A stretch of DNA of 55,673 bases from a virus. How positions within the stretch are numbered: the first letter of the stretch is position 1; each line of letters begins with the position of its first letter. Shown piece after piece: positions 6,336 through 48,963 of the stretch. Location: positions 1 to 55,673 of the IMG/VR virus record IMGVR_UViG_3300035698_021168. The stretch is one strand, 5' to 3'. The notes under the pieces were generated by a model. It ran no database searches. It saw only the letters and a list, made by a program, of their open reading frames with translations, and was not told the DNA's origin. The translations under genes and the position numbers were made by a program.

Positions 6336-6782
6336 TCAGGTGGTGACGAATTCGTCGTATTCTACGCGAGCGGTCATCAGGGTATAGAACCACGGGCCTT
6401 CGGGCCCAAACCCGTTCGCTGTCGCCTCGAAGAACTGGCAGCCGCCAGCGGTTCGTTTGCCTTCCACGGACGCCAGTAAGGCGGCGGAGACTGCGTCGGC
6501 GGAGGTCAGCCCGTCGCCAGACGCCGTGAATATCTGCACGGTGAGCGTCGCGCCACGCACGAACCTCGACCGGCCGAGGTCGCCGGTCAGGCTGCGCTGT
6601 GCGGACGCGGCGTGCCGGAACAGCACGCGCATCCAGGGCAGCACCACCGGGTCGTCCAGGTCGGGCTTCCGCCCAGCCTTGTCGTCGTAGACGATTCGGG
6701 CCGCGGGGATACCGGCAGCGACGGCGGCGACCGTGATCAGGTCGAGCACTTGGTCCCGGGCTTCCGTTCGCGTCGCGGGCAC
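6336..6782 (-). CDS. Tail terminator-like protein
   Basis: A 148-aa protein with a GTG start at 6782. Its N-terminal helix (TRTEARDQVLDLITVAA) and the later block GATLTVQIFTASGDG fit the tail terminator (gpU/DUF4128-like) pattern, as does its length. The position immediately before the tail tube gene is the expected one. The protein would cap the growing tail at the head-proximal end and take part in joining. Assignment relies on length, pattern and gene order. Confidence 0.65.
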   Translation of the reverse strand: MPATRTEARDQVLDLITVAAVAAGIPAARIVYDDKAGRKPDLDDPVVLPWMRVLFRHAASAQRSLTGDLGRSRFVRGATLTVQIFTASGDGLTSADAVSAALLASVEGKRTAGGCQFFEATANGFGPEGPWFYTLMTARVEYDEFVTT

Positions 6783-6785
6783 GGC

Positions 6786-7166
6786 CTACCGCCTGACCTG
6801 GATGATGTGGGCGAGCACCAGGGCCGCCGGTTTGATCGTTGTCACACCGACCACGCGCCAGGACTGCCCGTCGATCTCGAGCCGCCGGGCCTGCGTGAGG
6901 TCCGCAGACACACCGGCCGGGGGCGAGGTCAACCCCATCTTGTCGCCACGCATGATCTCGACGCCGTCGATGTCCTCGTCCTTATAATCCACCAGGGCGA
7001 GGTCGATCGGCACGCGGGTATCACCGGCGGTGTCAGCGCCACGCCAGGGCTTTCCAGCGACCACCGCCTGGGACTGCCCGGGGAGCACGGCCACCTGCGG
7101 GGACCCAAATTTGTTGATCAAGCCCGCGGCGGTCCGGGCAATAGCCGAGTAGTCGAACCGGCTCAT
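6786..7166 (-). CDS. Head-tail stopper/connector protein
   Basis: A 126-aa protein. The ATG at 7166 overlaps the stop of the preceding gene (ATGA), implying translational coupling. Residues 50-85 (DYKDEDIDGVEIMRGDKMGL) and the ending SWRVVGVTTIKPAALVLAH resemble phage head-closure or connector proteins found between the adaptor and tail terminator genes. No enzyme motif is present. The connector role is inferred from order: capsid, adaptor, this gene, tail terminator, tube. Confidence 0.6.
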   Translation of the reverse strand: MSRFDYSAIARTAAGLINKFGSPQVAVLPGQSQAVVAGKPWRGADTAGDTRVPIDLALVDYKDEDIDGVEIMRGDKMGLTSPPAGVSADLTQARRLEIDGQSWRVVGVTTIKPAALVLAHIIQVRR

Positions 7167-8029
7167 GCTCGCACCAGCCGCCGATTACCGGCCTCAATGA
7201 GCTCGCGGACCCACATGTCGGCCGTCGGGTACTGCGGCAGCCAAATGCCAGAGACGAGCCCACCAGACATGGCAGAGCGGTCGCGGAGCAGGGACTGCAC
7301 CTCCGCGGCGCTCATGTAGGTGACGGATTCCTTGATCGGACCGACGCCAACAGCCTGCTGGCTGATAACCCCGGAAACCTGGGCCTGCCCGGTGACCACC
7401 GCACCGGCGGCCGACCAATCCTGAGACGGAGCCGGGCGCGGGGCGTCGGGGGCAAGCTCCTTCAATGCCTGGGCGCGGAGGGCGTACTCGGCCACGGCCA
7501 TCCGCAGCTTCCGCGGCAGGCCGTTGTAGGGCCACCCGGCGTCGTCGTTGGCCTCGAGACGCGGCCACTCAAGGGCCTGGATCTGAGCCATGCGACGCCC
7601 GCGGAACTCGACGCCGAACCTCTGGTCGATGTAATCCGTCGCCCGCACGATCGCAGACTCCGCGTCGGCGGTAGCGATCGCCAGGGAAAGCACAAGCGTG
7701 CAGCCCGTGCCGCCCGAGGGGGCGACAGTCGTCGCGGCGGGGAGCGTCGGCAGGACCGAATACTCGCCACCGGCCACGATCGCAAGGGCGACCACCTCGC
7801 CCGCACCACCGATCTGCGTGACCCGCACCGTTGCCGCAGCGACCGATGTGCCGCCCACCACGGTCAACACATCGGCCAGGGCGTAGCCCGAACCGGGCGC
7901 GGAGACAGAGGCGGAGACGATGTTGTCGGTCAGGCGGCCACGCTCCCTGTGGTGAGCACGGAAATACGCCACCGCAACATACGCGTTGGCGTTCTCGATG
8001 CTGCTGCCATCTTCGACGGTAAACGGCAC
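7163..8029 (-). CDS. Head-tail adaptor (DnaT_2-like) with an inserted beta module
   Basis: 288 aa from a GTG at 8029 with GGAG six bases upstream; a TTG at 8068 is in frame but sits inside a hairpin. Residues 1-37 (MPFTVEDGSSIENANAYVAV) and 119-180 (SAIVRATDYIDQRF, then QALEWPR) are the two halves of a connector domain common in siphophages and annotated in databases as DnaT-like. Between them, about residues 38-118 form a Gly/Val/Thr-rich segment (GSGYALADVLTVVGG) that the family normally lacks and that recurs in the neighbouring gene. It probably protrudes from the connector ring. Confidence 0.7.
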   Translation of the reverse strand: MPFTVEDGSSIENANAYVAVAYFRAHHRERGRLTDNIVSASVSAPGSGYALADVLTVVGGTSVAAATVRVTQIGGAGEVVALAIVAGGEYSVLPTLPAATTVAPSGGTGCTLVLSLAIATADAESAIVRATDYIDQRFGVEFRGRRMAQIQALEWPRLEANDDAGWPYNGLPRKLRMAVAEYALRAQALKELAPDAPRPAPSQDWSAAGAVVTGQAQVSGVISQQAVGVGPIKESVTYMSAAEVQSLLRDRSAMSGGLVSGIWLPQYPTADMWVRELIEAGNRRLVRA

Positions 8030-12908: not shown

Positions 12909-14552
12909 TTACCCCCTCACGACCACGCCAGCGTCGGCGTTTGCACCATCGGCCTCGTCCGGGAAATCAGCGGCACGGGGGTCGTCCGGATCATCCGGAG
13001 CGTCCGGATCATCCCCACCGCCGGGGTCGATGTCGGTGAGGGCGGGGGCGTTCGTCACGAACTCCTCGCGCTCGGCCTCGAGCAGGGCCTCGTTTTCCTC
13101 CAGGTCGAACGCGGGGTCAAGCGCCCCGAACCGGCGGAGCTCCTGCAGGTACATCTCGCGGGCGAGGTCGCCGTTTCGGCGGGCCTGACCCACCTCCGCC
13201 AGGCCCTGGGGGCCGCCCGAATCGGGAGCAAGGTCGGTCTGCACGGCGACGGAGCCGACGGCGTCGGGGTCGATGTTTGCCCACAGCGCCGTGAAGTACA
13301 TCGCCATCGACAGGCTGTCGTTGAACCGCATGGCGGCGTCCTCGAGGTCGCTGACGCCACCAGCCTCGTCGAGCACGCGCTCGGTCGCGGTACCCGATGG
13401 CTTCTTCTTGAGGAAATCCGCCCCGTAGGACGCCATTTGATCCTCAAGGTCCTTCAAGTTATCGCGGCCCGCACCGATCGACGCGCCGGTGTGCTCAACG
13501 AAATACCACCGGCCAGCGGGGTCGGCGATGTTGAGCCAATTCTTCGGGCCCACCGTAATCTTCGTTTCGTCGACCACGCCACTCGACGCCAGCATCGGGA
13601 ACCGGGCGGTCGTGAGGATGTTCGTCTGGTCGGCGGTGGACTGCCAGTGAGCGATGTTCAGGTAGGCCAGGTCAGAGAGAGGCGGCGTCGCCAACAGCAT
13701 CGATTCCCGGTCGGCGTAGAACACCGCCAGCGTGATCTCGGGCACCTCGAGGAAGAACGCATCGGCCACGGGCCACCGTTTCGCGTCGTCCTCCTTTTGG
13801 CGGGTGTCCTCCTCGTAGATCACACAGAGCACGCGAGCGTCGCGGAACCCGACGGCGGCCGCACGCGACGCCACGCCGGGGTTTCCGCCCAACAGGTGCT
13901 CGTACCCCTCCGGCACGGCCACCGGGGTCCCGGCGTCGACAACGGTGAGCGACCGGATCTGGTTGACCACGCCCTGGGCGAAGCCAACGCGGCGGACTTC
14001 CTCCTCCCGGATCCGGACATGCGTGATAACCTCGCGGCCCTGACGCATCTCGGCAGACATGTCGATGATGTTCTCGGGGGGGATATGTACCCAATAGGGC
14101 CGGACGCCCTCCCGCAGGTCGTGAGCCCGCGTCCGGTTCGCCACCGCGGAGGTGCGGGGGTACTCGACCATGATCGCGGCGAACCCCTTCTGCAGGCCCT
14201 CCTTGAACCATTCGCGGGCGAACACATGCACGGCATTACCCTGCAGGTCGATGTCGTCCATCCACCCCAGGACCGCCGGGTTCGTGCTCTCGTCGATTTG
14301 CACCGGCTCGCTGAACACCCGCCCCACCAGGGCGAGCAGCGTGCGCTTGGTCTGGTTGAGCAGCACGGCCCGACCGAGCCGCTCCTCGTACGCCACCGGT
14401 GACTCGTTCTCGTGCCGGGGCAGGTACCGCTCCGACGCCCCACGCATGCGCGGCGTTCCACCGATGAGGTCAGACACGACCTCCCAACGCGGGAGCATGA
14501 TGTCGTAGGCCATGCATGTGGTCGCCGGGGATTCCGGGTTCTTCTCGGGCAC
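12909..14552 (-). CDS. Portal protein (DUF4055 type)
   Basis: A 547-aa protein from a GTG at 14552 with GGAGGTGA upstream. Family features include YLPRHENESPVAYEERLGRA near the start, NAVHVFAREWFKEGLQKGFA (residues about 105-125) and LAYLNIAHWQSTADQTNILT in the middle. It forms the twelve-fold ring at one capsid vertex through which DNA is packaged and released. The C-terminal 60 residues are acidic (GDDPDAPDDPDDPRAADFPD) and likely flexible. It follows the large terminase by three bases. Confidence 0.9.
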   Translation of the reverse strand: MPEKNPESPATTCMAYDIMLPRWEVVSDLIGGTPRMRGASERYLPRHENESPVAYEERLGRAVLLNQTKRTLLALVGRVFSEPVQIDESTNPAVLGWMDDIDLQGNAVHVFAREWFKEGLQKGFAAIMVEYPRTSAVANRTRAHDLREGVRPYWVHIPPENIIDMSAEMRQGREVITHVRIREEEVRRVGFAQGVVNQIRSLTVVDAGTPVAVPEGYEHLLGGNPGVASRAAAVGFRDARVLCVIYEEDTRQKEDDAKRWPVADAFFLEVPEITLAVFYADRESMLLATPPLSDLAYLNIAHWQSTADQTNILTTARFPMLASSGVVDETKITVGPKNWLNIADPAGRWYFVEHTGASIGAGRDNLKDLEDQMASYGADFLKKKPSGTATERVLDEAGGVSDLEDAAMRFNDSLSMAMYFTALWANIDPDAVGSVAVQTDLAPDSGGPQGLAEVGQARRNGDLAREMYLQELRRFGALDPAFDLEENEALLEAEREEFVTNAPALTDIDPGGGDDPDAPDDPDDPRAADFPDEADGANADAGVVVRG

Positions 14553-14555
14553 GGG

Positions 14556-16016
14556 TCACCTCCACGAACCGGACAGGGCCCCGGTTGCCTTACGGCGGAC
14601 ACGATAGCGTACTTCATCGCCGATGTGGTCCTCGGATTCGGTGTCCACATCGTCCTGATCCCTCTGCGAGCGGGGGAGCACGGGCAACTTTTCGCAGGCG
14701 TCGACGCACCGATCGCAGACAAAGATCCCGGGCTCCTCGCGGTACCCAGAGGCCGGAACCTGGGCAGCCATCATCCTCTTGCGGACCATTTCCCATCCCG
14801 CCTTCCGGCTCCCGGGCCCTTTGTCCGCAGGCAGGAACGAGCACCCCGCAGCCTGGAAGGTCAGGGCGACGGACGGCTGACCGGGCTCGGCGGCGAAGAT
14901 CTGCGAGTCGGCGGGCCCAGGCCGAACCAGGCCCCGCAGCCCGAGGTCAGCCTCCCGGTCGATGATGCCCTCGGCGATCTGCGACGCGGTCAGCCGCAGG
15001 CCCTCGTTGTCGTGGTTCGCGGACCCATACCACTCGGCGATCCGAACCAGGTCGCCGGGCACGGTACCGATCAGGCGGCCGCCCCACTCGAGCGGTTCGC
15101 CGTTGGACTCCGCCCACCAGCCGACGGAGAACGGTTTGCTCGACCCGTGGTCGTAGGACCGGTCGATCCGCCAGCCGCGGGGCATGGCGTGAGCGGGGAA
15201 GCTCGGGACCACATGCACCTCATAATCCCAAACATCGTCGAACATCCCCCCGGCCACGATGTCCCATGAACCGTCGCGCCACGCGCGGAGCTCCGCGGCG
15301 TTTTTGGCACCCATCAGGATCTGGGACTGATAGTCGGGGTCCTGCCGGAGCATCGCCTGGTTCTCGGCCAGATTCGACCGGATCGCCACGCGGGGCTTTT
15401 CGCCAGGGCGCTGGATCACGCGGCCGATCTTGCGGCCGCCGGGGCCCGTCGGAGCGAACCGCTTCTTCACCCAGTTGTGGCCCGGACCGGAGGGGTTGCA
15501 TGTCGAGCGGATCTTCCGGGGCACGCCGGGGTGCGACGAACGGCAACAGGTGATCATCCGGCGGTAGAGCACATCCAACGCCCAGGTGGTCAGCTCCTCG
15601 AAGCCGATCCACGGGTACTCATGCCCGTGATACTTCCAGTAGTCGGCGTCGCGCTCGAGCTGCCGGAGCAGGAGCACCTCGCCGGTAGCGAAATGCCACT
15701 CCGGGTTTGGGCTCGAGACAAACCGCGCGGTCGGGAACATTCGCGGGAACCATTTCTGCGTTTTGGCGATCACATCCTCGAGCTCCGGGTAAGTACGGCG
15801 GAACAGGATGCCGCGCCAGGCCGGACCGAACCCGGCGCTGTGACCGGGGAAGCGTCGCGGGCCCACATGCTGGGCGAAATCCATGATCAACCAGTCGGTC
15901 TTGCCGCCCCCGCGGTTGCCGTGAACCAGCGTCTCAAACACCTGCGAGGTGATCGCGTACACCTGAGCACCAGGCTGCGGCCGCCAGATGATCGGCGGCG
16001 TGCTGCTGCTACCCAC
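14556..16016 (-). CDS. terL: Terminase large subunit
   Basis: 486 aa from a GTG at 16016. The open frame extends to 16160, but that part overlaps the upstream gene and reads as low-complexity Arg/Ser/Pro, so the GTG overlapping the upstream stop is preferred. The Walker A motif GNRGGGKT is at residues 33-40 and a Walker B-like YPWIGFEEL follows. The nuclease half has acidic motifs around WRIDRSYDHGSSKPF and LVRPGPADSQI. It is the ATP-driven motor and headful nuclease. Its small subunit is about 4.4 kb upstream, beyond the repeat array. Confidence 0.9.
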   Translation of the reverse strand: MGSSSTPPIIWRPQPGAQVYAITSQVFETLVHGNRGGGKTDWLIMDFAQHVGPRRFPGHSAGFGPAWRGILFRRTYPELEDVIAKTQKWFPRMFPTARFVSSPNPEWHFATGEVLLLRQLERDADYWKYHGHEYPWIGFEELTTWALDVLYRRMITCCRSSHPGVPRKIRSTCNPSGPGHNWVKKRFAPTGPGGRKIGRVIQRPGEKPRVAIRSNLAENQAMLRQDPDYQSQILMGAKNAAELRAWRDGSWDIVAGGMFDDVWDYEVHVVPSFPAHAMPRGWRIDRSYDHGSSKPFSVGWWAESNGEPLEWGGRLIGTVPGDLVRIAEWYGSANHDNEGLRLTASQIAEGIIDREADLGLRGLVRPGPADSQIFAAEPGQPSVALTFQAAGCSFLPADKGPGSRKAGWEMVRKRMMAAQVPASGYREEPGIFVCDRCVDACEKLPVLPRSQRDQDDVDTESEDHIGDEVRYRVRRKATGALSGSWR

Positions 16017-16383
16017 GCAAGGCCCGACGGGGCAGGGACGACCCGTAGTCTCGCTCGAGGTCCCGGTTGAGCTCGCGGTAAGTCTCGACGGCCAGGCGGG
16101 CCATTTCCGACGGATCGAACCGGGACCCGACCGTCGCGGCCTGGTGCTCAGCGATCGCACCGGCGGTCACGGCGATCTCGCTCTCCACATTGTCGACGCG
16201 GCCCTCAACATCCCGGAACGAGATATTCTCGCACCAGTCGCGGCCCAGCAAGCGACGAACAGAGGCGTACACGCCGACCCGCCAAAACCAGGTCCCGTCG
16301 TCCCGCGCCTTGAGCTTGATGTCCACCAGGGGATCGGTCCTGTGGGCGGCGGCCGCGTCGATCTTCTTGGGCTTCGGGTCCAT
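16009..16383 (-). CDS. Unknown protein upstream of the large terminase
   Basis: 124 aa from an ATG at 16383. An in-frame ATG at 16413 is less likely because a -10-like TAGAAT sits just before 16383. Basic start (MDPKPKKIDAAAAH), a middle with Trp-rich DGTWFWRVGVYASVRRLLG, and a helical C-terminal half ending in ELNRDLERDYGSSLPRRALR. It overlaps the terminase start by eight bases. By position it could assist packaging, but a better small terminase candidate exists at 20448-21032. No family recognised. Confidence 0.65.
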   Translation of the reverse strand: MDPKPKKIDAAAAHRTDPLVDIKLKARDDGTWFWRVGVYASVRRLLGRDWCENISFRDVEGRVDNVESEIAVTAGAIAEHQAATVGSRFDPSEMARLAVETYRELNRDLERDYGSSLPRRALRG

Positions 16384-17998: not shown

Positions 17999-20447
17999 CG
18001 CGTCCGGCCGCGCGGCAGCGTCCGATCATGAAACTTGTGAGATTGTGGCAGGTCCCAATCACGGAAACTGGTGAGATTGGCACGGGTCGGTCTGTGACGG
18101 CGGCGGGCAGCGGGCGACCGGGGCCGGGGGCGATCGGCGGAGCGGTCCGCGGCCAGTGTGCGGGGCGCTGTGCGAGCACCGACCGCCCCCAGGGGCCGTG
18201 AAGGGCGATGGGCGAAACTGTGGCGGCGGATGGGCGGGCGGCGGGGCCGCAACTGGTGAAGGCGCTCCAGCGTCCGAGAACAAAACTGGTGAAGGCGCTC
18301 AAGCGTCCGAGAACAAAACTGGTGCGGGCGGTCTGCGTCCGATATGAAACATGTGTGACCGGTGTGTCCGGCGCTCGGGCGGGCGGCGGGGCCCAGGCGG
18401 AGCGTCCCCGAGACTCCCCGAGACTCCCGAACGGTCCGCAGCCGACGCCAGCGCCGGGGGGGAGCGTCCCCGAGACTCCCCCAGACTCCCCGAGACTCCC
18501 CGCACGGTCCCCAGCCCACGCCGGCACGCGGGTCCGATAAGTAAACTGGCGAAGATTGGCCGAGGTCCGGGAACAAAACTGGTGCGGGCCGGTCCGCGGA
18601 GATGTGCGGAACCCCAACCGCCCCCAGACGCCGTCAAGGCCACTGGAGCCGCTTGTGGCGACGGTCCGCAGGCAGATGGGCTTACCCCAGACGGCGCAGA
18701 CCCAACCGGCGTCGACAGGCGGCGACGCCCAGCGGCGACCGGCCGGTGACTGTCTGCGAGAGTGTGCCAGGCCCGAGCACCCAGGCCGAGCACCCAGGCC
18801 GAGGGCGAGCGGCCGGGCCCGCGGCGGGGCCAGCGCCCAGGCGGACGGCGTGAGGGCGTGAGGGCGTCCGTCCGATCACGAAACTGGTGAGATTGGCACG
18901 GGTCGGGGGTTTCCCCTGTGTCCGCAACTGTGTGCGGCAACTGTGCAGGGGGCGAGCGGGCACCAGGGGCCAGGAACGCCGCTCGTCCAAGCTGTGCGGC
19001 GGAACTGTGCGACCATCGCGCGGGTCCGATCACAAAACTGGTGAGCTTGGAGCGAGGTCCCAATCACGAAACTTGTCCGTGTTGGCGCTGGTCCCAATCA
19101 CGAAACTTGTCCAGCTTGGAGCAGGTCCCGATCACAAAACTGGTGAACCTCGTCCAGCGTCCGATCACGAAACTGGTGGCGCTCGGAACCGCGGGGGGTT
19201 GCCCTCGGTCCGCACCAGTGTGCGACGGAGGAACCGCCCTGAGAGCACGCCAGGGGCGATGGTCGGAAGTATGGGCCAGATGGTGGGCGTCCGAGAACCC
19301 AAAACTATGAAGATCGTCCGGGTCGACCCAGCCGGAACAGCCCCACCATGCCGGGCCATGCCGGGCCAGGCCGGGCCCAGTGTGCGAGCCCAGCGTGCGG
19401 GCGCAGGCCGAGCCGGGGCCAAGCCGGGGGCCGCCGGGGAGCAGACAGGACCCGCCGCAGGGCGCTCCGCGGGGCACCGGCACCGGCCAGGGGCGGGCAG
19501 CATCTATCCCGGACGGTCCGCGGCGAGATCGTGGCACGGGGGTTTCCCTGCGTCCGCCACCAGTGTGCGACGGAGCAACGGCCCTGGGAGCACGCCAGGG
19601 CCGCTCGTCGAGATTGTGCGGGGGACTGGTGCCGATCTATCGCCCGAGAACCGCGCCGGTCCACGCACCTGTCCACGCACCTGTCGCCCCGACGGCCAGC
19701 GGAGGGACGGCCAGGGGCGGGCGAGCGGCACCGAGCGCCCACGGGGCGAGCCCAGGGGCGGACGCCAGCAGGCGGAATCTATCGCGGCGGCGCTCCCCGA
19801 GTATCGTGGCACGGGGGTTGCCCTCGGTCCGGCGGACATGTGGGGCAGGCCCGCGGAGCATCAACCGCCACCAGAGGCCAGGAAGGGCGATCGTCAAAAC
19901 TATGGGCGGAACTGTGCGGAATACAGACCGAGAACCAGGGCCACTCCACGCACTGGTGCGGCCAGTCGTCAAGCCAAACCTGACAACTGCCCAGAGCCCG
20001 AGCGGCGGCGACGGCGGGGTAGGCAGGCGGAATCTATCCGGGCGGCGCTCCCGGAGTATCGTGGCACGGGGGTTGCCCTGCGTCCGCCGAACATGTGCGG
20101 GCAGTGTGCGACCGCCAAACCGCCCTGCGAGCCCAGGAACGCCACTGGTGGAAACTGTGCGGCGGAACTGTGGGAGCATGGCGAGCGTCCCAATCACGAA
20201 ACTTGTCCGTCTTGGCGCGGGTCCCAATCACCAAAACTCGTGAGCTTGGAACCAGGTCCCAATCACGAAACTTGGAAGATTGGAACGGCGGGGGGTTACC
20301 CTCGGTCTGCAACTATGTGCGAGAGTGTGCGACGGAGGAACCGCCCTGGGAGCGCAGGAACGCCACTGGGCGGAACTGTGGGGCGGAACTGTGGAAGATC
20401 GTCCGCGTCCTAGAACCAGAGCGTGAGCCCGGTCCGGCGGGCATCTA
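17999..20447. repeat. Repeat array 1, non-coding, about 2.4 kb
   Basis: No convincing gene on either strand. The region is a mosaic of short repeats. The best unit is about 34 bp on the plus strand, GGTCCCAATCACGAAACTTG followed by a variable spacer ending TTGG; five run in tandem at 19023, 19056, 19090, 19124 and 19158, and three more near 20190-20280. Other blocks recur: GGGGGTTGCCCT, then TCCGCAACTATGTGCG-type inverted repeats, GGCGGAACTGTG, and a roughly 50-bp block repeated near 19775 and 20030. The cores share AAACT or GAACT. Open frames exist but shift frame between repeat copies, which argues against coding. Confidence 0.8.
19023..19190 (+). repeat. Five tandem 33-34 bp units within array 1
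   Basis: Unit starts are 19023, 19056, 19090, 19124 and 19158. The constant part is GGTCC, then C/G, A/G ATCAC, G/A AAACT; the last 10-12 bases vary. The constant spacing suggests same-face protein binding about every three helical turns. Confidence 0.8.
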
Positions 20448-21032
20448 TCAGGCCCGGACCACGCCATGCCCACCGCCAGGGGCACGGCGACGCGGCCCGC
20501 GCTCGATAACCAGCGTCCCGTCCGCGGCGGCGACCGACGGACCGGAACCGCCAGGGGCGTGAGCACCAGCGTCTGCGGCCTCCCGAGCGGCCAGGTCCGA
20601 CGCCGCAGCACCGTCCTCGAGGGCCAACCATTCCGCCATGCTGCCGGGGGCAATCGGGATCGCCAGGACGCCCACCCCACCCTGCACCAGGGCGGCGGGG
20701 TCCATCTTGTCCCCGAACCGGCGGCGGGCCATCCGAGCAGCGGCCCACTTCAGGGCGTCAATCGCCACCGCGCCAGCCCGAGGGTCGATCTTTCCGGCAG
20801 CGACGGCCATGCCGATCTCGGCAACCCGCTCCCCGTAGGTGATGCCGCGGCCCTCGCAGGCGCGCGCGTAGTACTCCGAGAACGGATGCTCGGGGTCGGC
20901 AGCCCAGGCGAGCATGGTGGACTCTGCGGGCATCGCCGTATCCCTGCCGATCGACGCGAGGGATTCCCCCAGCATGATCCGCATGGCAACGGTCAGGGCG
21001 ACGGCCTCGGTATAGGCGGACGGGCGGCCCAC
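20448..21032 (-). CDS. terS: Terminase small subunit (Sf6/P22-like helical type)
   Basis: 194 aa from a GTG at 21032. Opening GRPSAYTEAVALTVAMRIML, then GESLASIGRDTAMPAESTML and ERVAEIGMAVAAGKIDPRAG are the DNA-binding helix-turn-helix and oligomerisation helices of this terminase family, ending with WAAARMARRRFGDK. The last 60 residues are low-complexity Ala/Gly. It recognises the phage DNA and regulates the large subunit. It is separated from terL by the non-coding array and five small genes, an unusual split, so the array could contain or influence the packaging site. Confidence 0.85.
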   Translation of the reverse strand: MGRPSAYTEAVALTVAMRIMLGESLASIGRDTAMPAESTMLAWAADPEHPFSEYYARACEGRGITYGERVAEIGMAVAAGKIDPRAGAVAIDALKWAAARMARRRFGDKMDPAALVQGGVGVLAIPIAPGSMAEWLALEDGAAASDLAAREAADAGAHAPGGSGPSVAAADGTLVIERGPRRRAPGGGHGVVRA

Positions 21033-21131: not shown

Positions 21132-21824
21132 TCACGCAACAGCCCCGGCAGCGTCGACCGGATTGGGCTCGGGTAGGGCCTTCGGCGGTGCGGGCAGGGG
21201 GCCAAGCCAAAGCGCGCCCGCGGGCACCTGCGACACCGTCGCGTAGGACACAGTGTCCCCAGGCCCGAACCCGCACGCCCAGCCGGGGCAGAGCAGCGGG
21301 CCTCCCATCTTGGGCGACGGGCGGAGACGGACCACATCCGGTCCGAGGAAACCCACCTGGAGCAGGTAGAGCCCAGGACGCCGGGGGCAGGACTCTGTCC
21401 AGTCGAGCGGCCTGGTGACAGGGCGCGGCGGGGGCACGGTCGCGGCCACCGGCGACGGATCAGGGTCGCGGGCGGGGGCGCGGGCGGGAACCCGGCCAGC
21501 CAGGGGCACATAGTGAGCCGCCAGGTCCGTTATGACACCGTGCGCGGCGGTCTCCAGGGCCAACCATTCGGCGTGAGTGATCGTGAGGGTCGCGGTCACG
21601 CCCACCCGGCGGTCCTTCACCAGGCCGCAGGCCGCCATCATTTCCAACAGGTTCGACGCCCGTTTATAGCCGACCTTCAACCGGCGCTGCAGGACGGAGA
21701 GGGACGCGACGCCGGTGTCGAGCAGGACGCCGACCGCTTCTTCAAACATGGGGTCGCGTTTCGCGGCGGCGTAGGCGTTCACCTTATCGGCGTCGTCGGT
21801 TATCGGGGGCGCTTCAAGTGTCAC
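21132..21824 (-). CDS. FtsK-gamma-like winged-helix protein
   Basis: 230 aa from a GTG at 21824 with AAGGAGG upstream. Residues 23-70 (RDPMFEEAVGVLLDTGVASL, then SVLQRRLKVGYKRASNLLEM) match the gamma domain of the DNA translocase FtsK, a winged helix that reads polarised chromosomal octamers. There is no motor domain. The middle is Pro/Ala/Arg-rich (about 115-150) and the C-terminus is a Gly/Pro-rich domain with two Cys. It lies in one run with terS and a ParB-type fusion. A role in reading phage or host DNA sites is a reasonable inference. Confidence 0.75.
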   Translation of the reverse strand: MTLEAPPITDDADKVNAYAAAKRDPMFEEAVGVLLDTGVASLSVLQRRLKVGYKRASNLLEMMAACGLVKDRRVGVTATLTITHAEWLALETAAHGVITDLAAHYVPLAGRVPARAPARDPDPSPVAATVPPPRPVTRPLDWTESCPRRPGLYLLQVGFLGPDVVRLRPSPKMGGPLLCPGWACGFGPGDTVSYATVSQVPAGALWLGPLPAPPKALPEPNPVDAAGAVA

Positions 21825-21876: not shown

Positions 21877-22296
21877 TCACCGGACGGCGGCGGCGCGGAG
21901 GTGGTGGTTTCCGGTCACCGGCAGGTCGAGCTCAGCCTCCAGCGCCATGAGCAGGGCCTCGAGGTCCGTAGGGGCGGTGACCCAGAGAACCGGGAACTGC
22001 GCCGGGTGGTCATGGTCGTGCCGCGGGCGAGCGAAAACACTGATCACGCGGCCGGACGGCCCCTCGAGCAGGTGGGCGGTATCCCCTCGGGCGGCCCAGA
22101 GACGCCAGAGGAACCCGAGGGCGTGCCCGATGACCACCGCCGCGTCGGCGTCCTCGAGGTCGGGCCCGTCGAACACTCCGCACCCATCGTCGTCACAAAC
22201 ACCATGCTTCGGGTGGAGGAACAAACCGGGGAACGGCTGATCTTCGGGCATGGCGGCGAGGATCACGGCCAGGCGGGCCTGCAGGTTCTCGATCAA
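21877..22296 (-). CDS. Unknown protein coupled to the methyltransferase gene
   Basis: 139 aa with a TTG start at 22296 overlapping the stop of the upstream gene (TTGA). It contains a Cys/Asp-rich turn (KHGVCDDDGCGVFDGPDLED), an aromatic helix (GHALGFLWRLWAA) and a His/Asp patch (RPRHDHDHPAQFPVLWVTAP). No family recognised. The tight coupling suggests it works with, or is needed at the same level as, the ParB-methyltransferase. Confidence 0.55.
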   Translation of the reverse strand: MIENLQARLAVILAAMPEDQPFPGLFLHPKHGVCDDDGCGVFDGPDLEDADAAVVIGHALGFLWRLWAARGDTAHLLEGPSGRVISVFARPRHDHDHPAQFPVLWVTAPTDLEALLMALEAELDLPVTGNHHLRAAAVR

Positions 22297-23765
22297 CGGC
22301 CACCGCCCTTCTTACCCTTCGCGGGCTTCGGGGCGGGCTTCTTCGGCGGCGCGGGCTTCGGCGGCGGAGGGGGCGTGACCGGGTCGAGCGCCGGGCCAGC
22401 CTCCGGGGCGTCCGGAGCGGGGGACGGGTCGGCCTCGTGGGCAGCGGCGCGGGCGCGTTCGAACACCACCTCGGCGTATTCCTGCCGGGTCGCCTCGAGC
22501 ACGGCCCGATGCCCGGTGTAGGCCTGCCACCTCTGCACGATCACATCGACATAGCCCGGGTCGAGCTCCATCGCATGGCAGGACCGGCCGGTACGCTCGC
22601 AGGCAATCACCGTCGTGCCGGAGCCGCAGAATGGTTCGTAGACGGCCTGGCCCGGGCTCGAGTTGTTCCGCAGAGGGCGCTCCATGCACTCAACGGGTTT
22701 CTGCGTGCCGTGCCCGGTGTTGTTCTTCTGGTGGTCAATAAACCACACCGTGGACTGCTTCCGGTCGCCCTCCCAACTGCCAGCCTGCCCGTCGCGGACG
22801 GCGTAATGACCCAGGTCATGGTCACCCTCGTCCGCGTTGTCTTGGGCGGCGTCAGAGCCGCGGCGGGCATCGAACACCGGTTCGTGCTGGTGGTGATAGT
22901 GCCCACGCGAGATCGCAAACCGGTTCTTCACCCAGACAATCTGGGCCCGGATGTTGAACCCAGCGGCGGCCAGAGAGGCGGCGACGATGTGCGCCTTCGT
23001 GCCCGCATGCCAGACATAGGCCACCGCGCCGGGGAACAGCGCCCAGGCCTCACGCCAGTCGGCACGGTCGTCGTTGAGCACCACGCCCGTCGCCAGGGAC
23101 CCCTTGTCCGCCAGGCCGGACTGCTCGCGCCAGCCGGGCTCGTAGTCGACGCCGTAGGGCGGGTCGGTGACCATGATGTTCGGAGACACACCGGCCAGGC
23201 AGCGGTCGACATGGGCCGGAGAGGTGCAGTCACCGCACACCAGCCGGTGACGGCCGAGCAGCCAAACATCGCCGAGCACCGAGGTCGGGCGGGCGGGCTT
23301 CGGCGGGGCGTCGTCGGGATCGGTCAGGCCCTCGTTCCCCGGCGGGGCGAGCAGCCTCAACAGGTCCGCGTCGCTGAACCCGATCAGGGGCAGGTGATAC
23401 CCAGCCTCCTGGAGGGCGCGGAGCTCCGACGACAGGATGCTGGGGTCCCATCCGGCGTTTGCGGCCAGCTGGTTGTCGGCCAGGACATACGCGCGGACCT
23501 GGTCCTCGGTGAGGCCAGAGAGCGTGATGGTCGGCACGGCGTCGAGCCCGAGCATAACGGCGGCGCTACGGCGAGCGTGCCCGGCGACCATCATGCCGGA
23601 GTCGTCGATCAGGATCGGGTTCGTCCAGCCGAACTCCCGGATCGACGCGGCCACCTGAGCGATTTGCTCGTCGGTGTGCGTCCGGGCGTTCCGCTCATAC
23701 GGCCGGACATCCTCGATGTCGCGGTACACGATTTCCAGGCCTCGACCGGCCACGCCTTCTGCCAT
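22293..23765 (-). CDS. ParB-like domain fused to DNA amino-methyltransferase
   Basis: 490 aa, ATG at 23765 with GGAGGTG upstream. Residues 10-100 are a ParB/sulfiredoxin-like nuclease fold (NARTHTDEQIAQVAASIREF; MMVAGHARRSAAVMLG). Residues 165-420 are a beta-class amino-methyltransferase: DPPY at 201-204 before FCGSGTT at 379-385, then AMELDPGYVDVIVQRW. An acidic stretch at about 299-320 (DARRGSDAAQDNADEGDHDL) looks inserted into the usual HEP-YAVRDG segment. The last 60 residues are a Pro/Lys tail. It probably modifies phage DNA at N6-A or N4-C against host restriction. Confidence 0.9.
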   Translation of the reverse strand: MAEGVAGRGLEIVYRDIEDVRPYERNARTHTDEQIAQVAASIREFGWTNPILIDDSGMMVAGHARRSAAVMLGLDAVPTITLSGLTEDQVRAYVLADNQLAANAGWDPSILSSELRALQEAGYHLPLIGFSDADLLRLLAPPGNEGLTDPDDAPPKPARPTSVLGDVWLLGRHRLVCGDCTSPAHVDRCLAGVSPNIMVTDPPYGVDYEPGWREQSGLADKGSLATGVVLNDDRADWREAWALFPGAVAYVWHAGTKAHIVAASLAAAGFNIRAQIVWVKNRFAISRGHYHHQHEPVFDARRGSDAAQDNADEGDHDLGHYAVRDGQAGSWEGDRKQSTVWFIDHQKNNTGHGTQKPVECMERPLRNNSSPGQAVYEPFCGSGTTVIACERTGRSCHAMELDPGYVDVIVQRWQAYTGHRAVLEATRQEYAEVVFERARAAAHEADPSPAPDAPEAGPALDPVTPPPPPKPAPPKKPAPKPAKGKKGGGR

Positions 23766-23829: not shown

Positions 23830-24291
23830 TTACCCGGGGATCGCATGCATAGTACTGAATTCAGCCGCGGTCACGAACTGCGAGCCGCGGCCGGACTTTG
23901 GATTGATCACGACGGGCCCGCGCAGATTTGCACACAGCACGCCACCCGAGACATTGAGCACCACGCGGACGATCGCATCCGCAGAGAGCTCCACGCCGTG
24001 GGCGAACGCGCCAGCACGCACCGCCTCGTCGGCCAGGGCCAACCGGCTGAAGCCTGGCTGAAACCTGTCGGGGTCACACACCACGAACGCGAGGGCGGGC
24101 GCATCGGCGGACTGCAGGAACTGCGGCCGCAGGCAGGTGTCCTCACCATCGGGGACCGAGAGCAGGAAGTAACGGGCCATGCCGGGGAACCCCACCAGCC
24201 CGTCCGAGAACTCGATCAGGTCCTGGGCCCGCACTTTCACCAGGCCGAACCTCGAGGTCGGGACGCTGACCGACGGAGCGGCCAGCCTCAA
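23830..24291 (-). CDS. fliW: FliW-like flagellar assembly factor
   Basis: 153 aa from a TTG at 24291 that overlaps the upstream stop (TTGA); 153 residues is the normal FliW length. Diagnostic segments are DLIEFSDGLVGFPGMARYFL (24-43), ALAFVVCDPDRF (66-77) and ANLRGPVVINPKSGRGSQFV (121-140). In bacteria FliW binds CsrA and flagellin, releasing CsrA from target mRNAs when flagellin is exported. A phage copy could retune host CsrA regulation or motility. No csrA was recognised in the window. It follows a 76-aa gene and the tRNA-like sequence. Confidence 0.9.
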   Translation of the reverse strand: MRLAAPSVSVPTSRFGLVKVRAQDLIEFSDGLVGFPGMARYFLLSVPDGEDTCLRPQFLQSADAPALAFVVCDPDRFQPGFSRLALADEAVRAGAFAHGVELSADAIVRVVLNVSGGVLCANLRGPVVINPKSGRGSQFVTAAEFSTMHAIPG

Positions 24292-24518
24292 GCGCCACCG
24301 CCAGCGGCGACGGGCGGGCCGTCCGCAGGGCGCTCGATGCGGTAACCGCTCCAGGGGCCGAGCGCCATCCACCGGCGGCCGCGGTCGCGGTCAACCCAAC
24401 AGCGGACCATCTCGCCAGAGATGCCGTCGAGGAACTCGATCGCGTACTCGGTCCGATCACGCTCCATCGGGCGGCCGCCGGAGAGAAGAAAGAACAGGCG
24501 GGCGAGCACTCGACGCAC
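24288..24518 (-). CDS. Small basic protein upstream of fliW
   Basis: 76 aa from a GTG at 24518 with GGAGG six bases upstream, a better choice than the ATG at 24467. Residues 2-16 (RRVLARLFFLLSGG) are hydrophobic and could touch the membrane. The rest (YAIEFLDGISGEMVRCWVDR, then GRRWMALGPWSGYRIERP) looks like a compact beta-rich domain. The stop overlaps the fliW TTG, so the two are translationally coupled. No family recognised. Confidence 0.55.
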   Translation of the reverse strand: MRRVLARLFFLLSGGRPMERDRTEYAIEFLDGISGEMVRCWVDRDRGRRWMALGPWSGYRIERPADGPPVAAGGGA

Positions 24519-24757: not shown

Positions 24758-24760
24758 AAT

Positions 24761-24903
24761 GGAGAGGGCAGGAATCGAACCCGCTCCCCCGGCTTTCGCG
24801 CGCGAGGTTCACGGACGGAGCGACCGTCCGAGGGGCGGAGCGACCACCCGTTCAACATGGCACGCCATCGATGCGGGCGCTCTACCCAATGAGCTACCTC
24901 TCC
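24761..24903 (-). tRNA. tRNA-like sequence with about 70 extra bases, anticodon uncertain
   Basis: On the minus strand GGAGAGG opens and CCTCTCC closes a perfect 7-bp acceptor stem with A next. A D arm (GCTC, ATTGGGTA, GAGC) and a T arm (GCGGG, TTCGATT, CCTGC) are intact. The total is 143 bases, far above the usual 73-95. The anticodon arm is not clean: CCCGC-ATCGATG-GCGTG has one mismatch and would read CGA (Ser), while ATGTTGA before ACGGG would read GUU (Asn). The extra segment holds direct repeats of GGTCGCTCCG. It could be a tRNA with an insertion, a decayed tRNA, or a tRNA mimic. Confidence 0.5.
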
Positions 24904-25979
24904 ACGGTTGCGGGGCCAGGAAGCGACCCCGCGGCCACCACCTTACCCCCGAAAACGCGAGCGGTCAAGCCCAGGCCGAGCGGCGGCGGCGTTCCATGTG
25001 GAACATCCCGAGCATCGCGGCGGGCGGGGGTTTCCCTGTGTCCGCAACTATGTGCGGGGGAGTGTGCGGACGCGAACCGCCACCAGGGGCAGGGAACGCC
25101 ACTGGTCAAAACTGTGCGGGGGAGTGTGCGACCATCGCGCCGGTCCGATCACGAAACTGGTGGCGCTCGGACACGCGGGGGGTTGCCCTCGCCCCGGCGA
25201 GTGTGCGAGGGAGTGTGCGACCGTCGCGCCGGTCCAATCACGAACCTTGTCCATCTTGGCGCGGGTCCCAATCACGAAACTGGTGAGATTGGAACGGCGG
25301 GGGGGTTGCCCTCGGTCTGCGCATGTGTGCGAGCGTGTGCGGACGCCCAACCGCCTCCAGGGGCAGGGAACGCCGCTCGTGGAAACTGTGCGGCGGAACT
25401 ATGTGCCGGGTACGGCCCGAGAACCCGAGCGGTCGACGCACCTGTCGACGCACCTGTCCGCACGCGGGCGGGCCGACGGCGTGCCAGGCCGGGGCAAGGG
25501 CGAGCCCAGGCGGGGGGGCGACGGCGAGCCCGAGGGCGGGAACCAGGCGGGCCGCGGGCCAGGCGGGCGGAGCGATCTATCCTGGCGGGCGCTCCCCGGC
25601 GTCGTGCGTTGGGGCTTTGCCCGGCGTTGTGCATTGGGGCGTTGCCCTGTATCCGCCAACTTTGTGCGGGAGTGTGCATACGCGAACCGCCTACAGGGGC
25701 AGGCAGGGCCGCTCGGGGAAACTGTGCGGCGAGACTGTGCGAGCATCGCGCAGGTCCCGATCACGGAACTTGTCCATCTTGGCGCGGGTCCCAATCACGA
25801 AACTGGTGACGCTGGTGAGGGCGGGGGGTTGCCCTGTGTCCGCAACAGTGTGAGATAAGCCGACCGCCCTGAGAGGCCGCCAGGGCCGATCGGCGTAACT
25901 GTGGGGCCGAATGGTGGCAAACCGACGCGGGTCCGAGAAATAAGATCGGCCGCTTGGAACGGTGATCGGACCAGGCGTT
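24904..25979. repeat. Repeat array 2, non-coding, about 1.0 kb
   Basis: No supportable gene. It is built of the same blocks as array 1: GGGGGTTGCCCT, TCCGCAACTATGTGCG, AACCGCC then CAGGGGCAGGGAACGCC, GAAACTGTGCGGCGGAACT, and the unit GGTCCCAATCACGAAACTGG (near 25142, 25230, 25262, 25757 and 25789). A 13-bp tandem GTCGACGCACCT pair near 25432 has its partner (GTCCACGCACCT) near 19661 in array 1. The two arrays therefore look like duplicated or co-evolving regions. They flank the block holding terS, the FtsK-gamma protein, the ParB-methyltransferase, fliW and the tRNA-like sequence. Confidence 0.75.
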
Positions 25980-37809: not shown

Positions 37810-38265
37810 TCAGAGAGCACGCGGCGCTTCAAGCCCACCCCTGAGCGTGCGGCGACGGATCTCGGGCTCATAGAACCGGCACGCGGCGACCACGGACTCG
37901 GCCTGCTCCCGCGTCATGAGCGACATGTGGCACCGCGGCAGGGGGATCCCGGTCTGTTTCGCAAGCCATGCATAGGCGTAGCGGCGACGCATGATCCGCA
38001 GCGCCCAGATTGGGTCGAACGCTGCGTGAGCCGCACGGCGGGCGAGCAGCGTCTCGTGATCCTGCAAGGGCTTCCAGCCCCAGGACCGCATCCCGCAACA
38101 GTAATGGCGGACATTCACGCGGCCGTCGAACTCGCAGTCGCGGCGAAGGGCCTCGAGCCCGCACACGGGGCAGATGGGAGCGATGCGGCCGTTCGCCAGG
38201 GCCGCCAGCTGGCCGAGCGTCTCGGGGCACGCCATCCACCCAGGCCGCACCTCGGGCCCGCTCAC
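37810..38265 (-). CDS. Zinc-finger-containing phage protein (DUF3268-like)
   Basis: 151 aa. APICPVCGLEALRRDCEFDG and NVRHYCCGMRSWGWKP supply a Cys/His zinc-binding set. The second half (YAYAWLAKQTGIPLPRCHMS followed by LMTREQAESVV) matches the conserved end of a phage family where a zinc finger is followed by a short CH motif helix. Start overlaps the next gene. Likely nucleic-acid related. Exact function unknown. Confidence 0.65.
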   Translation of the reverse strand: MSGPEVRPGWMACPETLGQLAALANGRIAPICPVCGLEALRRDCEFDGRVNVRHYCCGMRSWGWKPLQDHETLLARRAAHAAFDPIWALRIMRRRYAYAWLAKQTGIPLPRCHMSLMTREQAESVVAACRFYEPEIRRRTLRGGLEAPRAL

Positions 38266-39143
38266 CTCGACGCCTCACGCGGCATCTCGCGGACCCGCAG
38301 GTCCGCAGGCCACTCGGACCAATCCCCACCATGCGAGTCGGCCAACCGCCCCTCGATAGACAGGCCGATGGGCCGAGCGCCAAGCTGTTTCACGAACGCG
38401 GCGACGCCATGCACGCGGCACGCGGCGACGCCCGCACGGAACGGTCCCATCGGTGTGGTCTGGGGGTTCTGCCCGAACTCGCCCCCAAAGATCGCCCAGG
38501 CCACCGGGCGCTGCACCACCTCACCGGCGGGGCCCTCTTCACGCGGGCCCAGGCAGAAATCCCAATCGGGAGCGCCCTCGAGCGGTTCGAAACTGATTCC
38601 ACGCACCACGCCGGGAGGGCCGATGTCCTTCAGGGCGCTCGCCCGCAGCATGGTCCGCCGACCGGTGACGCTGGTCATGGGCCAGAGGTTCATCGGCCAG
38701 GCAATGCCGCGCTCGAGCATCCACAGATAGAACTCCCGCATCCGCGTCGGGCGCTTCGACAGCCAAATCCACCGATGCCGTCTACCCATCGGCGAGCGGG
38801 CCACCTCGACCACCTCGCGGAGCAGGTAGTCGAAGCCGATGCCCGCAGAGAGAGCGTCGCCCATGTCAGACACGAACACCAGGCGCGGCAAGCCGTCCAA
38901 CCAGGGCTTACCCGGCCGGGGGTGCATTTGCAGCGGCGACCACTTCGCGGCCTTCGCCATTCGGCCAGGGAACTCTTCCGGCGTCTCGAACTTCCGCGCG
39001 TACCCCTTCGTCGGGCCATACCGCTCGTGGAGCACGCCCGCATAGCAGGTCCGCCGGTCGCGCGTCCAGAGCTCGCAGCCATCGCAACCCATTACGGGGT
39101 TCACCGTTGAATCGCACCACTGGATGGCGGTGTCTTTGCTCAC
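38262..39143 (-). CDS. Gp37/Gp68-type (DUF5131) phage protein
   Basis: 293 aa from a GTG at 39143. TAIQWCDSTVNPVMGCDGCE with several Cys, then RRTCYAGVLHERYG, LVFVSDMGDALSAGIGFDYL, WIWLSKRPTRMREFYLW and VAWAIFGGEFGQNPQ are hallmarks of the Gp37/Gp68 family. Three N-terminal Cys may coordinate metal, perhaps an iron-sulphur centre. The family is common in phages but poorly characterised. The gene is coupled to both neighbours. Confidence 0.85.
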   Translation of the reverse strand: MSKDTAIQWCDSTVNPVMGCDGCELWTRDRRTCYAGVLHERYGPTKGYARKFETPEEFPGRMAKAAKWSPLQMHPRPGKPWLDGLPRLVFVSDMGDALSAGIGFDYLLREVVEVARSPMGRRHRWIWLSKRPTRMREFYLWMLERGIAWPMNLWPMTSVTGRRTMLRASALKDIGPPGVVRGISFEPLEGAPDWDFCLGPREEGPAGEVVQRPVAWAIFGGEFGQNPQTTPMGPFRAGVAACRVHGVAAFVKQLGARPIGLSIEGRLADSHGGDWSEWPADLRVREMPREASR

Positions 39144-48396: not shown

Positions 48397-48963
48397 TTAC
48401 CGGACCGTGAACAGCACGCCACCGAACGGCCGGACCGACCCGTCGGCCGCCAGGGCGTTCCGAGCCGCGTCGCCGGAGCCCGGATGGACAGGCAGGGTGT
48501 CGACGGCGAGCACGCCAGCCGAGTCGCCCAGGAACATCCGCGTCGCCCAGCGGCGGCCCAGGCCAGCGTGAAGCACGCCCGTCGGCCCGTACCAATACGA
48601 GAACCCGGTCACCGGCCCGAGCTCGTCGTCGGCCGGGCAGGCCCACGGGTCGCCCGTCACGGCCCCGCCGTACACCGCATCCACGCCGGGGAACGGGGCG
48701 TCGAGGAACCGGGCGAGCTCCGACCACGGACCGGCGACGCCGTCGGCCACATCGGCATCCCGCCAGGCATAAGGCAGCATGCCGTCACCGGCGTCGAGAT
48801 ACATGGTCATCGCCTGGCCGATCGACCGGAGGTTCACCTGGCAGGCCACGCGACGCGCCGTGCCAACCGCGGCCGCCAGCGCGGGCGCGAGCAGGCCGAT
48901 CAACACAGCGACCACGCCGATGACCACCAGCAACTCGATGAGCGTGAACGCGCGGCGGTTCAT
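48397..48963 (-). CDS. Pseudopilin-like (DUF1559-type) protein
   Basis: 188 aa from an ATG at 48963 that overlaps the upstream stop (ATGA). Residues 2-16 (NRRAFTLIELLVVIG) are a class III prepilin signal, with Ala at -1 and Glu at +5 of the mature start, followed by one hydrophobic helix. VACQVNLRSIGQAMTMYLDA then GDGMLPY is the planctomycete DUF1559/type II pseudopilin pattern, and the end (FLGDSAG; ARNALAADGSVRPFGG) fits too. It needs host prepilin peptidase. A phage copy is unexpected. It lies after the tail genes. Confidence 0.9.
   Translation of the reverse strand: MNRRAFTLIELLVVIGVVAVLIGLLAPALAAAVGTARRVACQVNLRSIGQAMTMYLDAGDGMLPYAWRDADVADGVAGPWSELARFLDAPFPGVDAVYGGAVTGDPWACPADDELGPVTGFSYWYGPTGVLHAGLGRRWATRMFLGDSAGVLAVDTLPVHPGSGDAARNALAADGSVRPFGGVLFTVR

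Follow-up and report, generated by a model that had tools for sequence, protein, structure and literature searches.

A divergent FliW homologue in the variable slot of a siphophage genome as a candidate antagonist of host CsrA

CsrA is a global translation regulator. Its non-competitive antagonist FliW is itself titrated by flagellin (PMC6070490, PMC6529632). What could a FliW homologue do when it is encoded by a phage? The window analyzed here is a 55,673-nt viral contig (IMG/VR virus record IMGVR_UViG_3300035698_021168) in which a preliminary description, made from the sequence alone, had noticed a gene for a FliW-like protein and had suggested that the phage uses it to retune host CsrA or motility. 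The coordinates given for this gene were right and its strand had to be corrected: the motifs and the length of 153 aa that had been listed as characteristic of FliW are present in the minus-strand reading frame that starts at the TTG at 24291, and the plus-strand reading of the same stretch displays no FliW features. The coordinates of this and other features of the window are collected in Table 1.

A search with the FliW family profile, which had been proposed as a check, gave a strong match to PF02623 (E 9e-17, 61.4 bits against a cut-off of 25, covering profile positions 1-114 of 122), and the sequence also matched a solved FliW structure (PDB 5dmb, E 5e-8). Six NCBIfam FliW equivalogs were matched with E-values from 1e-14 to 1e-18, all under their strict equivalog cut-offs, the best score being 67.4 bits where 165 are required; the protein is thus divergent and does not belong to a named equivalog. 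No match was obtained in PHROG. Only in this frame does the codon usage of fliW agree with that of the phage's own genes (score 32.8, z 7.3); the scores of all remaining frames were negative. An AlphaFold model, calculated from an alignment with 16 planctomycete FliWs, had a mean pLDDT of 82.5 and a pTM of 0.79, and when it was compared with the PDB by Foldseek at E <= 0.001 only FliW entries were matched, with a TM-score of about 0.7; among predicted viral structures, nothing was found at the same threshold. These results clearly show that the product of 23830-24291 is a true, although divergent, member of the FliW family.

The phage protein retains 20 of 22 near-universal FliW positions, defined as those shared by 85% or more of 100 cellular FliWs drawn from many phyla, a set gathered in part by a pattern over NL..P..VIN so that those columns are favored; the two exceptions are W58F and Y81F. 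It also keeps 26 of 35 positions conserved within the Phycisphaerae; the N-terminal TSRFG and the NLRGPVVIN strand are retained as well. Compared with cellular FliWs, it has short insertions ahead of LQS and one of 5 aa near residue 95, its C-terminus is 10-15 aa shorter, and its acidity is below that of most of them. Absence of a significant profile match and a predicted loss of the CsrA-contact surface had been named beforehand as observations that would speak against the proposal; the profile match is strong and, at the level of residues conserved throughout the family, the protein is preserved.

Upstream of fliW lies the gene for a 76-aa orphan protein, p76, with a GGAGG Shine-Dalgarno sequence about 7 nt before its GTG start and a codon score that is positive in this frame only (z 4.4). 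The TGA of p76 overlaps the TTG of fliW (TTGA) and the fliW start lacks a good ribosome site of its own, so that the translational coupling of both genes asserted previously is plausible from these sequence features. That p76 might be a partner of FliW, as had also been suggested, finds no support: searches for relatives of p76 retrieved none that was recognizable, and nothing but the overlap of stop and start ties it to fliW. Planctomycete sequences that matched p76 weakly (E 0.001 to 0.1), many of them containing stops, were read as composition noise.

The genes around p76 and fliW are those of a tailed phage. Terminase, portal, capsid, connector and tail genes were recognized in this 55.7-kb genome, together with RecT-like and RecE-like proteins, two DNA methyltransferases and a 5'-deoxynucleotidase. 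The portal protein shares 43% identity with its counterpart in Pseudomonas phage M6, and the module comprising the terminase large subunit, portal, head and capsid genes is collinear with those of two related viral contigs, L141 and L143, a homology and gene order that place the phage among the YuA/M6-type siphophages. Tail genes occur at both contig ends, from which the genome is probably near-complete and circularly permuted; a search for a terminal repeat in the record found none.

Table 1. Position and assignment of features in the 55,673-nt window.
Feature	Position	Strand	Remarks
Portal protein, YuA/M6 type	12909..14552	minus	phrog_145
Terminase large subunit	14556..16160	minus	phrog_979, phrog_2; marks the record as a tailed phage
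Degenerate direct repeats, first block	18000-20400		apparently non-coding
Terminase small subunit (TerS)	20448..21032	minus	PF20901, phrog_1482
FtsK-gamma DNA-binding domain	21132-21824	minus	PF09397; no FtsK motor
ParB-like + N6/N4 DNA methyltransferase	22293..23765	minus	PF01555, E 2e-21; phrog_498, E 1e-135
fliW homologue	23830..24291	minus	153 aa; TTG start (24291), TAA stop (23830); Pfam, fold, codon usage
p76, orphan protein	24288..24518	minus	76 aa; GTG start (24518), stop overlaps fliW start
tRNA-like gene	24760-24903	minus	Rfam tRNA, 44 bits
Degenerate direct repeats, second block	24850-25860		apparently non-coding
DUF5131 protein	38262-39143	minus	PF07505, phrog_2045; function unassigned
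Prepilin-like protein	48397-48963	minus	near tail genes

As the preliminary description had stated, this fliW stands without csrA, of which there is no copy in the 55,673-nt window, and without flagellar genes, none of which was recognized among the genes scanned with profile libraries. The flagellar and csrA neighborhood expected of a FliW that antagonizes CsrA is absent, and the neighbors of fliW are phage genes. The gene for the ParB-like methyltransferase is located directly downstream; in the closest relative (L141, from a 57.6-kb contig, with 64% identity in the terminase and 75% in the capsid) a protein 65% identical to it is encoded at the matching place and anchors a variable slot. 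A survey of related phages for fliW at this site had been suggested, and when it was carried out the flanking gene order was shared by L141 whereas fliW was absent from it, other proteins being encoded between the methyltransferase gene and the next shared gene. These were excluded as hidden FliWs by profile comparison. Since the flanking order is shared while the contents differ, fliW is, as judged from these gene orders, accessory cargo in a variable slot. In L141, the gene adjoining the methyltransferase gene (6632-7237 of that contig) encodes a peptide deformylase (PF01327), another translation-related, host-like gene.

Searches for a second viral FliW were consistently negative. None was detected when 2.9 million IMG/VR contigs were scanned with the FliW protein or with three FliW alignments, an absence that is strong and not absolute, as these scans rest on short peptide patterns and may omit the window's own record. 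One pattern of this kind, NL[KQR][AG]P[IV]VIN, recovers cellular FliWs by the hundred. Profile searches of 77 related viral records revealed no other FliW, comparison of our own FliW profile with 107 related viral loci no further one, and in 45 related viral records no csrA scored over the cut-off. Two GenBank entries labeled 'Bacteriophage sp.' (MT836588.1 and MT836129.1) gave tblastn matches to FliW and were rejected as phage, since in both fliW and csrA are surrounded by genes for flagellar proteins, as in an operon of a bacterium. A FliW is also encoded on one large Priestia plasmid. The earlier remark that no established phage use of FliW is known agrees with these searches and with those of the literature, which yielded neither a prior report nor a second viral example.

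Among 84,980 species' genomes scanned, the best cellular relatives of the phage protein were those of planctomycetes, with the Phycisphaerae first, and a FliW match occurred in 228 of the 397 genomes of the class to which the top hit belongs, the best at 41-45% identity. In a phylogenetic tree, the phage FliW fell among the Planctomycetota with an SH-aLRT of 94, and no other branch was as long as its own (2.26); in AU tests its placement with other phyla was not rejected. A collinear relative of the phage structural module is present on a 36-kb contig in one genome of the top-hit class. The ParB-like methyltransferase was considered as a host marker and discarded, because it occurs so widely among Phycisphaerae genomes that it does not single out a host. 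Taken at the level of sequence comparison, a planctomycete is the likely host, and the gene probably descends from a cellular fliW and became an accessory gene of a siphophage that probably infects planctomycetes. The window also encodes a prepilin-like protein with an N-methylation motif above the cut-off, a weak GspG match and a weak, sub-cut-off match to DUF1559, a family that we take to be typical of planctomycetes.

From neighboring sequences, the gene order flgL-fliW-csrA-flagellin was read for the Phycisphaerae. A csrA was found at 21 planctomycete fliW loci, and in every one of them the CsrA encoded beside fliW has a C-terminal extension as well as R44, I51 and N55. Mutations in C. jejuni identified N55, V/I51 and the C-terminal region as determinants of FliW binding, and for N55 the same was shown in B. 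subtilis and Geobacter (PMC7829508, PMC13407953). As CsrA of the probable host clade possesses the residues contacted by FliW, the CsrA of the likely host should be recognized by a FliW. Phage-borne CsrA homologues that correlate with host CsrA have been documented (PMC8450108, PMC7366521), which establishes the Csr node as a target of phages.

Considering that the protein retains the core of the FliW family and that a binding-competent CsrA occurs in the probable host clade, we favor, with somewhat better than even confidence, the reading that the phage FliW binds host CsrA and releases CsrA targets, free of flagellin feedback. The earlier proposal that the phage retunes host CsrA is, in this form, the best reading of the fold, the family-wide residues retained and the contact residues in CsrA of the probable host clade. 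According to this model, p76 and FliW would be made together during infection, and FliW would bind non-competitively to the region of the C-terminal helix of host CsrA (I51, N55) and take CsrA off its GGA-containing target mRNAs. No csrA or flagellar gene occurs in the window, so the partner for flagellin feedback is not supplied by the phage; as the phage FliW would be made independently of flagellin, the normal feedback would be broken and CsrA would stay off. CsrA-repressed host mRNAs would be freed for translation, and phage mRNAs with GGAGG ribosome sites, which resemble CsrA sites, might be freed too. Against CsrA antagonism, the divergence of the protein, the changes at W58 and Y81, the insertions, the shorter C-terminus and the lower acidity might weaken the contact with CsrA or the repulsion of RNA, the host assignment is only probable, and fliW is carried by a single contig.

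An action on host flagellin instead of CsrA, in which the phage FliW would bind newly made flagellin, disturb its export or assembly and alter motility, appears unlikely, though it is the best placed of the alternatives. In cellular FliW, flagellin is bound by the N-terminal loop together with strands beta4-6 (PMC6070490), and the TSRFG and NLRGPVVIN segments persist in the phage protein; however, both are conserved family-wide and do not separate a flagellin function from a CsrA function. Flagellin binding normally serves the control of CsrA, which would be the wider lever for a phage, and no flagellin-like gene was recognized in the phage. Somewhat more doubtful still is the recruitment of the FliW fold to a role specific to the phage, such as an interaction with p76 or some other phage protein, at the cost of binding both CsrA and flagellin. 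The length of the branch in the tree, the insertions, the loss of W58, the shortened C-terminus and the overlap with an orphan gene would all suit such a history, but the near-universal positions retained do not, and a lone viral example in a slot exchanged between relatives points to recent capture over long domestication. The least probable alternative is that fliW is a functionless passenger, or an artefact of assembly in which cellular DNA was fused to a phage contig. In its favor, one viral record only carries the gene, and contig L011 (metagenome 3300023242), a 99.7% match to the window, breaks off at the stop codon of fliW. Against it, the identity to any FliW found (<=45%) is lower than fresh host DNA would show, neither flgL nor csrA accompanies the gene as a flank, its frame is intact, its codon use is phage-like, and phage genes lie on both sides.

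CsrA antagonism by the phage FliW can be compared with several known systems. The Phycisphaerae FliWs share with it the family, the fold, and the TSRFG, LAFVV.DP and NL.GP..IN motifs, whereas the phage copy stands alone, with its short insertions, F in place of W58 and truncated C-terminus. FliWs from Bacillus and Geobacillus (PDB 5dmb, 5jak and 2aj7) have the same fold (Foldseek E about 1e-8, probability 1.0) and core residues at 21-26% identity; their binding of CsrA and flagellin is characterized, whereas the phage FliW is known from its sequence and model. YuA/M6-like Pseudomonas siphophages resemble the present phage in the kind of structural module and in the portal (about 43% identity), but no FliW was found in the phage records searched and the host here is probably a planctomycete. 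Phage CsrA/RsmA homologues (PMC8450108, PMC7366521) are phage genes that would act on the same Csr node; they add CsrA, whereas the phage FliW, an unrelated protein, would remove CsrA activity and so act in the opposite direction. In the passages of PMC7366521 and PMC7829508 in which it is cited, the type III secretion chaperone CesT of enteropathogenic E. coli is likewise a protein antagonist of CsrA, although it is an unrelated, bacterial and not viral protein that competes at the RNA site.

In the literature searched, phages are known to add CsrA, and neither a phage FliW nor any other phage protein that removes CsrA activity was found. Whether the present protein is the first viral protein antagonist of CsrA, a mirror image of the csrA-carrying phages, we regard as evenly balanced. 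If so, viruses push the Csr node in both directions, and a natural, feedback-free FliW would be available for dissecting CsrA control in planctomycetes, a group for which no study of the FliW-CsrA system was found in the literature searched. CsrA controls the expression of CRISPR-Cas in some bacteria (PMC8450108).

Besides fliW, the window holds other features (Table 1). The gene with the FtsK-gamma domain adjoins that of the terminase small subunit, and a DUF5131 protein is encoded farther along. The TerS-to-fliW gene group is bracketed by the two long blocks of degenerate direct repeats; their units are spaced about 33-34 nt (GGTCCCAATCACGAAACTTGTCCATCTTGGCGC-like), with an additional 74-nt family, and the blocks might represent origin, partition or protein-binding arrays. 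Just upstream of p76-fliW, the tRNA-like gene has complete acceptor, D and T arms and is interrupted at the anticodon loop by about 73 extra nt, an insert far shorter than a group I intron; ARAGORN detects the gene only with introns allowed, and the matching slot in L141 holds an ordinary tRNA-Met.
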